This document shows positions 3,273 to 5,406 of a DNA stretch of 6,106 nt, in pieces. Made by a program: the position numbers and the translations under genes. Under the pieces are notes generated by a model. The model made no database searches. It was given only the letters and a program-made list of their open reading frames with translations, and had not been told where the DNA came from. Each line of letters opens with the position of its first letter. The stretch's first letter is position 1. The DNA comes from Deltaproteobacteria bacterium (GTDB taxonomy: Bacteria > DRYD01). The stretch lies in assembly GCA_028276365.1 (NCBI GenBank), contig JAPYWL010000062.1, positions 1 through 6,106 of the forward strand. The letters are read 5' to 3'.

Positions 3273-4592
3273 TTATGAGCCAAATAATATTGGCCTTAAT
3301 ATATATAATATACCTTTTTTTTCTTGTAGTTCATTATATATTTCTTGATTATTAGAATTTAGGTATTGTTTTTTTAGTAATGAGTAAGAAGCTAACAAGT
3401 TCATATATATATCATAAAGTTTCTTTAATTTGCTATCTAAATAACTACTTTTTCTTTTATTTCTTAAGTTTAGATTAATCAATTCATTTAAGATGTTATT
3501 ATCAATTAGATTTTCGTTAATTTCATCTTGTAAAACCTCTACCATTATATTTCTCTCTACGTAAACTGATCTTATGTAAAATAGGATATTTAGAAAAATG
3601 TAAATAAGTGTATAAAATGGGAATACAATACACATTAATAGAAGATTTGAGGAGAAAATAAGAGAAGAGAAATTCCATAGGAAATGCGAACCAACACTTA
3701 GTAAATATCCTCCTGTTACATATAGTATTTTTTTTAGGTAATCCTTAGTTAAGGTAGCAAAGCCTATAGAAAATCCAACAAATGAGGTCATTAAAGAATG
3801 TAGTATAAACCCAAATACCCACCTGAGAATCATTTGAAGAAAACCTCCACTTAGTCCTGCTATAGCTATTCCGTTAGCAATGTATATATAATCTTCAACT
3901 AACTTAAATCCCAGTCCTGCAGCAGCTGCATATACCATACCATCTATTGGACTATTGAATTTTGTTCTTAAAAACAATAATATTATAACTATTGCTAATA
4001 ATTTAAAAAACTCTTCAAATATTGGAGCACTTACAACTATTCCACATATATTACCAAATGTTTGACCACATATAAAGCTAGATATTGTGATATTAAATTC
4101 ATTAGCTATTAAAGCAAAAAAAGTAGCACCTAAGGCACCCCATATAAAAGCAAATATTATATGGCTCCAATCCTCCTTTTCATATATATCTAATAACCTC
4201 AAAAAATATAAAGCTAAAAAACTAAATAGAATAGAAATTGAATAATATATTAATGCTAATAAAATTCCTCCTATCCCGCCTCTACTTATTATCATTGTCC
4301 CTGTTAAAATACTAAAACATAAACAAGAAATAAAAAATATAAAAGAAAATATCACAAAAATTAATATAGTTTTGTTTCTATTTGATACATTATAACTGAG
4401 ATTGTTAATCAAATTTATAGCTTCATCTATGCTTTTAATATAAACATTAGGTGTATTATTATTATATTGAGTTTTAATGTTTAAATCAAAGTTACTTGAA
4501 GGTTTTGGAGTATCATGAATTATTGAACCGCAATTGGGGCAAAAGATGTATTCTGACCTAACACTATATCCACAATTATAACACTTGCTAAT
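3273..4592 (-). CDS. Zinc-ribbon PrsW-type intramembrane protease, probable ATT start
   Basis: The frame runs from an upstream TAA (4596-4598) to the TAA at 3273-3275. I place the start at the ATT at 4590-4592 (439 residues), because a GGAGGG Shine-Dalgarno lies 7 nt before it. The first conventional start, a TTG at 4410-4412, has no clear site and would remove an intact zinc ribbon. Residues 4-21 hold C4-x2-C7 and C18-x2-C21 (CYNCG, CPNCG), followed by a low-complexity linker to about 70. About eight membrane segments follow (roughly 74-340). The PrsW motifs are FEEFFK (E193, E194, K197), FKLVEDY (E233), LHSLMTS (H265) and SHFLWN (H303), which are the membrane-embedded glutamate/histidine motifs of family M82. 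A charged helical cytosolic tail fills 341-439. In Bacillus, PrsW cleaves the anti-sigma factor RsiW; the substrate here is unknown. Other members of the wider CPBP/PrsW superfamily need not be proteases. Confidence 0.85.
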   Translation of the reverse strand: MSKCYNCGYSVRSEYIFCPNCGSIIHDTPKPSSNFDLNIKTQYNNNTPNVYIKSIDEAINLINNLSYNVSNRNKTILIFVIFSFIFFISCLCFSILTGTMIISRGGIGGILLALIYYSISILFSFLALYFLRLLDIYEKEDWSHIIFAFIWGALGATFFALIANEFNITISSFICGQTFGNICGIVVSAPIFEEFFKLLAIVIILLFLRTKFNSPIDGMVYAAAAGLGFKLVEDYIYIANGIAIAGLSGGFLQMILRWVFGFILHSLMTSFVGFSIGFATLTKDYLKKILYVTGGYLLSVGSHFLWNFSSLIFSSNLLLMCIVFPFYTLIYIFLNILFYIRSVYVERNIMVEVLQDEINENLIDNNILNELINLNLRNKRKSSYLDSKLKKLYDIYMNLLASYSLLKKQYLNSNNQEIYNELQEKKGILYILRPILFGS

Positions 4593-4599
4593 AAATTAT

Positions 4600-4605
4600 C
4601 CCTCC
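4600..4605 (-). promoter_or_regulatory. Shine-Dalgarno GGAGGG that decides the PrsW-like start
   Basis: On the - strand, GGAGGG lies 7 nt before the ATT codon at 4592, a normal spacing for initiation. It is the strongest ribosome binding site in the window. It overlaps a tiny ORF, ATG GAG GGA TAA (4607-4596), in the same frame. Confidence 0.65.
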
Positions 4606-4635
4606 ATAGGTAAATCCATTAATAAACTAAATCCC

Positions 4636-5406
4636 TTAGTAAACTATACCACCATCAAAAAATATATGCTGATTGTTTATATAAGTATTTTCATAGCTTA
4701 ATAAAAAAGCTATAAATTTCCCTATTTCTTTTACATCTGCTATTCTTTTTATTAATATGTTTTTTTCTATTTCTTTTATATAATCATTAGGGGATATATT
4801 CAATATCTTAGATTGTTTAAGTATGTAATCTTGTAGTCGTTCGGTATTTATATAACCTGGAGCTACAGCGTTTATTAATAGTTTCCCATTAAAACTTTCC
4901 GATAATTCTAAATTAATAGTTTTTAAAGCATTAACAAGTGCCAATCTTAAAGAGTTTGAAACTATCATGTTTTTAGTTATCTTTTTGGTAGTAAATGAAG
5001 TTATTGCTACTATTCTAGGATATTCTGAATTTTTTAGATAATTAATTGTATTTTTTATTATTTCAATTGGTGATAAAAACATTGTTTTAAAATAGCTTAG
5101 CCATTCGTTATGGGTTATTTCATGAAATGGTTTGATATTAGGTCCCCCATAGTTTATTAGTATAGAATCAAGTTTGTTTATATTTTCTAATATATCAACT
5201 AAATTTTTTAAAGTAGAATCTTCTGAAATATCACCAGGTAGAAGAATTATTTTATCTTCTGAATAATTTTTTCTTAGTTCATTATATGCTTTAAGGGGGT
5301 TTCTGGAATTTAAAATAATGTGATAATTTTTAGCTAACATTTGATTAGCTACTTCAAAACCAATTCCTTTAGATCCCCCTAATATTAATGCAAAATTTTT
5401 TGACAT
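4636..5406 (-). CDS. Short-chain dehydrogenase/reductase, atypical active site
   Basis: A 256-residue single-domain SDR with the expected Rossmann core. GGSKGIG (10-16) is the nucleotide-binding loop, SR at 34-35 would favour NADP(H), and GDI (58-60) is the adenine-site Asp. NYGGP (85-89) stands in for NNAG. ITS gives the catalytic-type S137. APGYINTER (182-190) and a C-terminal FFDGG (249-253) close the fold. The catalytic Tyr (13 after the Ser) and Lys (17 after) are replaced by S150 and R154 in a SNSLR context. From memory, a recognised SDR branch shares GGP, SN-x-x-R and PG-x-x-x-T-x-R, and the protein fits that branch. Such proteins are often labelled 3-oxoacyl-ACP reductase, but the substrate is unknown and classical oxidoreductase activity is doubtful. 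The ATG at 5406 follows an AAGGAAG site at good spacing. The gene starts 16 nt after the STAS gene, so the two are probably co-transcribed. Confidence 0.9.
   Translation of the reverse strand: MSKNFALILGGSKGIGFEVANQMLAKNYHIILNSRNPLKAYNELRKNYSEDKIILLPGDISEDSTLKNLVDILENINKLDSILINYGGPNIKPFHEITHNEWLSYFKTMFLSPIEIIKNTINYLKNSEYPRIVAITSFTTKKITKNMIVSNSLRLALVNALKTINLELSESFNGKLLINAVAPGYINTERLQDYILKQSKILNISPNDYIKEIEKNILIKRIADVKEIGKFIAFLLSYENTYINNQHIFFDGGIVY

Follow-up and report, generated by a model that had tools for sequence, protein, structure and literature searches.

The prsW gene described here raises the question of where its translation begins, as none of the usual start codons stands ahead of the conserved domain at the front of its reading frame. 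The window, meaning the whole stretch of DNA analysed, is an entire contig of 6106 bases from the metagenome-assembled genome of an uncultured bacterium (G000; 1.59 Mb, ~24% GC) related to Candidatus Calescibacterium in the candidate phylum Calescibacteriota. Its minus-strand genes encode a YtxH-like protein (labelled by inspection only), a STAS-domain protein, an SDR oxidoreductase, a PrsW-family protease, a family 2 glycosyltransferase and a 5'-nucleotidase-like protein. On the plus strand, an open frame at positions 1-588 runs off the start of the contig and encodes repeats of a KELKTDIEKLDNKIEEVR-like coiled-coil unit. The SDR gene (4636-5406, minus strand; PF13561/PF00106 match) lies upstream of prsW and probably shares one operon with it; judging by the neighbourhood, a role of the protease in stress signalling would fit the STAS-domain gene two genes upstream.

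Counted from an ATT codon, prsW (3273-4592, minus strand) encodes a 439 aa zinc-ribbon intramembrane protease. Residues 140-329 match the PrsW-protease family PF13367 (E 1.8e-41; 142 bits against a cut-off of 23.5), as do 5/5 homologues, and Glu193, Glu194, Glu233, His265 and His303 of the membrane domain are invariant in the five; such residues are catalytic in the PrsW family, a role that is putative here. The protein covers the full length of the model for this family, to which Bacillus PrsW belongs, but differs in having a zinc ribbon at the N-terminus and a helical extension at the C-terminus. The ribbon is predicted from a C-x2-C-x10-C-x2-C pattern at residues 4-22 (4527-4583, minus strand); the segment CYNCGYSVRSEYIFCPNC matches Pfam Zn_Ribbon_1 with an E of 2e-4, just under the curated cut-off, and the same domain was found in 5/5 scanned homologues. 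The four cysteines of its two CxxC knuckles (Cys4, Cys7, Cys18 and Cys21) are invariant among the homologues, with synonymous changes between genomes within the ribbon (Cys as TGT or TGC). A predicted structure, built with only five sequences, is good for the membrane part; the ribbon is modelled with low confidence (pLDDT ~46-58), and the model was dropped as support for it.

On the minus strand the prsW frame reads TAA (4598-4596), TTT (4595-4593) and ATT (4592-4590), and between this in-frame stop and the ribbon ATT is the sole near-cognate codon. As originally described, with coordinates that proved exact, the frame lacks ATG, GTG and TTG from the stop to a TTG at 4412-4410, 60 codons downstream of the ATT; this TTG is the first start offered by the ORF caller and the one a standard gene caller would take, and since it lies downstream of the ribbon, a start chosen by the usual rules would lose that domain. 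The lack of usual starts was rejected as stand-alone evidence, as 60 such codons would occur by chance with a probability of ~0.21 in this 24% GC genome. The Shine-Dalgarno sequence GGAGGG (4600-4605, minus strand) stands 7 nt (ATAATTT) before the ATT, exactly as first placed; GGAGG occurs seven times in the window, always on the minus strand, and only the copy at 4605-4601 falls outside coding sequence. A GGAGG within a 5-nt spacing range is expected at ~0.2% of random sites, and the 16S rRNA tails of two related genomes (G001 and G002) end in CACCTCCTTTCT, a normal anti-Shine-Dalgarno sequence. No sign of a regulatory RNA structure was found at the start, where folding was no better than that of shuffled sequences in both species of the genus (z 0.22 and -0.12).

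Counting the window's own genome, prsW homologues were found in six genomes of the family; the others are G001, likewise a metagenome assembly and the only other genome of the same genus in the comparison (L014, contig CAKZQG010000026.1), and four genomes of the sister genus, Candidatus Calescibacterium. The G001 protein is 73% identical to that of the window and its frame begins TAA TCT ATT AAT TGC, with GGAGGG again 7 nt before the ATT (L014:2995-2997), which aligns with the ATT of the window. No ATG, GTG or TTG occurs over 95 codons of the G001 frame; codon 96 is the first, an ATG that falls within the membrane part. In all four sister-genus genomes the gene begins ATG-(AGA or AAA)-TGT, giving M-[RK]-C, and this Met aligns with the ATT of G001; in the window the start and the first Cys are one codon further apart. 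The upstream TAA is found at the same place in G001 and in G004 of the sister genus, and the ATG of G004 directly follows the aligned TAA-TTT; the leaders GATAATTTATGAG (G004) and GATAATTTATTAG (window) differ in the third base of the start codon. The homologue alignment first proposed as a check thus returns ATT in G001 and ATG in the sister genus at the aligned position. G004 has a full-length prsW (L015) and, in addition, an ATG-started open frame of only 71 aa that encodes the same zinc ribbon (L013:1501-1605).

Due to a start codon missing ahead of a conserved domain in two species, the observation is considered strong on sequence grounds, and prsW of the window's genus is very probably translated from AUU at 4592, as originally proposed. 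The ribosome would be positioned by the GGAGGG 7 nt upstream and would read the AUU as formyl-Met; the product would be a membrane protease of 439 residues with the zinc ribbon at its N-terminus.

The alternative that survives best is one of translational coupling, by which ribosomes would restart at the ATT after terminating just upstream; AUU would still be read, so coupling is compatible with the preferred reading, and it is regarded as possible though less likely than not. The coupling site would be either the SDR stop in G001 or a short in-frame ORF, ATG GAG GGA TAA, that is present in both species, and ATGGAGGGATAA occurs in both genomes. The SDR gene of G001 ends GAT GGA GGG ATA ATC TAT TAA and overlaps prsW by one base, the third base of the prsW ATT being the T of the SDR stop (ATTAA). 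An ATG in this register would destroy the SDR stop, therefore the third base there cannot be G. The Shine-Dalgarno sequence and ATT of G001 are also part of the SDR coding sequence, so the protein it encodes accounts for some of their conservation in that genome; the short ORF of G001, which is SDR coding as well, gives no independent sign of function. Against coupling, the SDR stop of the window (TAA, 4638-4636) lies 43 nt upstream of the prsW ATT, and the strong Shine-Dalgarno sequence permits direct initiation.

The separation of the two genes in the window coincides with a stretch of ~48 nt relative to G001 (4588-4635, minus strand; located by alignment, exact ends ambiguous), which holds a second copy of the SDR end and prsW leader. 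The gap between SDR stop and prsW start contains a 17-nt tandem repeat (4611-4627 and 4628-4644, the latter overlapping the edge of the stretch) that is absent from G001. The second GGAGGGATAATTTATTAG in the window, past the ~48 nt, no longer encodes SDR; the ATT and its Shine-Dalgarno sequence are thus kept where the SDR protein no longer requires them. A 48-nt insertion has freed the ATT of the window from the SDR gene and the ATT is nevertheless retained, although the stretch may be of recent origin. SDR orthologues occur in both genera, and the gene neighbours prsW only in the window's genus; in the sister genus the SDR gene lies elsewhere, its protein ending DGGITI or DGGLTT, and prsW lies 4 nt behind an ftsZ-like gene (L016:1869-4302; named by inspection), which in the window's genus is on another contig. 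The likely origin of the AUU start is a rearrangement by which prsW left its place behind ftsZ and came to follow the SDR gene, and in G001 coupling to SDR translation may add to prsW output.

Initiation at TTG 4412 or at another internal usual start, with the ribbon frame left untranslated, is considered very improbable. This TTG is the first usual start in the frame of the window, and a product begun there, immediately ahead of the first transmembrane helix, would retain the membrane domain; however, it has no good Shine-Dalgarno sequence before it, the aligned codon in G001 is TTA, and there the first usual start is the ATG inside the membrane part. The frame upstream of the TTG is a conserved ribbon in every homologue and is ATG-started in the sister genus; a homologue beginning at the TTG position without a ribbon, named at the outset as what would overturn the prediction, does not occur among the close homologues examined, all of which begin at the ribbon.

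A sequencing or assembly error that conceals an ATG is slightly less probable again; the window comes from a metagenome assembly, and ATT and ATG differ by a single base, but a distinct and separately assembled species has ATT at the same place, where a change to ATG would remove the SDR stop. Given the same ATT, the same Shine-Dalgarno sequence and the same lack of a usual start at 73% protein identity, a local base error is very unlikely. Use of the ATG at 4607 with readthrough of the TAA at 4598 is the least credible account, as ATG GAG GGA TAA stands in frame ahead of the ATT in both species but has no clear Shine-Dalgarno sequence before 4607, TAA is an ordinary stop in this genome and a poor readthrough codon in general, and the sister genus starts at an ATG past the equivalent point.

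Initiation at AUU thus remains the preferred reading, and its consequences for expression can be outlined from what is established about such codons: pairing of AUU with the initiator tRNA is poor, AUU-type starts are partly rejected by IF3, and a strong Shine-Dalgarno sequence offsets some of the loss. A weak AUU would keep the protease at low abundance, and a shortage of IF3 would raise its output together with that of a near-cognate infC; the simplest reading of the start is that little of the membrane protease is made and that its output is sensitive to IF3, though for the IF3-linked regulation of prsW itself the chances are judged about even. Rare AUU starts are already established, and prsW adds a further case. 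In E. coli, infC (AUU, with IF3 autoregulation) and pcnB (AUU) have starts that limit expression (PMC1780047, PMC9410913). Like these, prsW is a chromosomal gene beginning at AUU; unlike them it encodes a membrane protease rather than a translation factor or poly(A) polymerase, and IF3 control, a feature of E. coli infC, is putative for prsW. In S. aureus, AUU and AUA starts give ~10% of AUG output in RPMI medium, and cvfC1 (AUU), ccpN (AUA) and infC (AUA) have conserved near-cognate starts with strong Shine-Dalgarno sites (PMC13009471). The present lineage resembles S. aureus in its conserved near-cognate starts with strong Shine-Dalgarno sequences and in having a near-cognate infC in the same organism; however, ribosome profiling and reporters located the S. 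aureus starts, while that of prsW is predicted from comparative sequence. The cvfC1 product, a 61-residue protein and not a protease, also has a possible zinc-finger fold (PMC13009471).

The analogy with infC drawn in the original prediction extends to the lineage itself, where infC has no usual start before its conserved N-terminus in 5/5 genomes in which it was found. In the window's genus (L021, L022) GGAGGT stands 8 nt before an ATA that is followed by an ATT codon, and in the sister genus (L023-L025) GGAGGT stands 8 nt before an ATC. In the window's genus truD begins with ATA in G000 as well as in G001 (L166:1501-2595, L167); in the sister genus it has ATG in two genes and GTG in one. Within the window's genus an ATT lies next to or near the ATA of both infC and truD, so the codon actually read is less certain for these two genes. 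It is unlikely, though conceivable, that the overlap imposed the AUU start (in ATTAA only codons ending in T can serve) and that prsW (AUU), truD (AUA) and infC (AUA/AUC) form a small Calescibacteriota set that would co-vary with the level of IF3. Common gene callers omit AUU, AUA and AUC, so the ribbon of PrsW, the first residues of IF3 and the front of TruD would be mis-annotated in this lineage; in G001 the mis-annotation would also remove the start of the PrsW membrane domain. If the AUU start is correct, a membrane protease joins the few genes whose output a near-cognate start keeps low, and the lineage would be suited to testing whether several genes are under IF3-linked control; worth further attention are the ATTAA overlap and the near-cognate starts that prsW shares with infC and truD. 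Among the papers searched, none was found on start codons in this phylum or on the start of a zinc-ribbon PrsW.

The survey for near-cognate starts covered 272 gene pairs of the two genus members (~0.86 Mb of G000 and 1.0 Mb of G001), with prsW examined directly, outside the pairs; infC and truD are the only clear near-cognate cases among these besides prsW. Most candidates on the raw list were set aside as antisense shadow frames or as alignments that extend past a normal ATG by a few codons on its upstream side. A RecF/SMC-like gene of G000 (L096:879-1742) without a usual start was left uncounted, given a TTG and a poly-T run at that place in G001; it possibly reflects a frameshift or another odd start.
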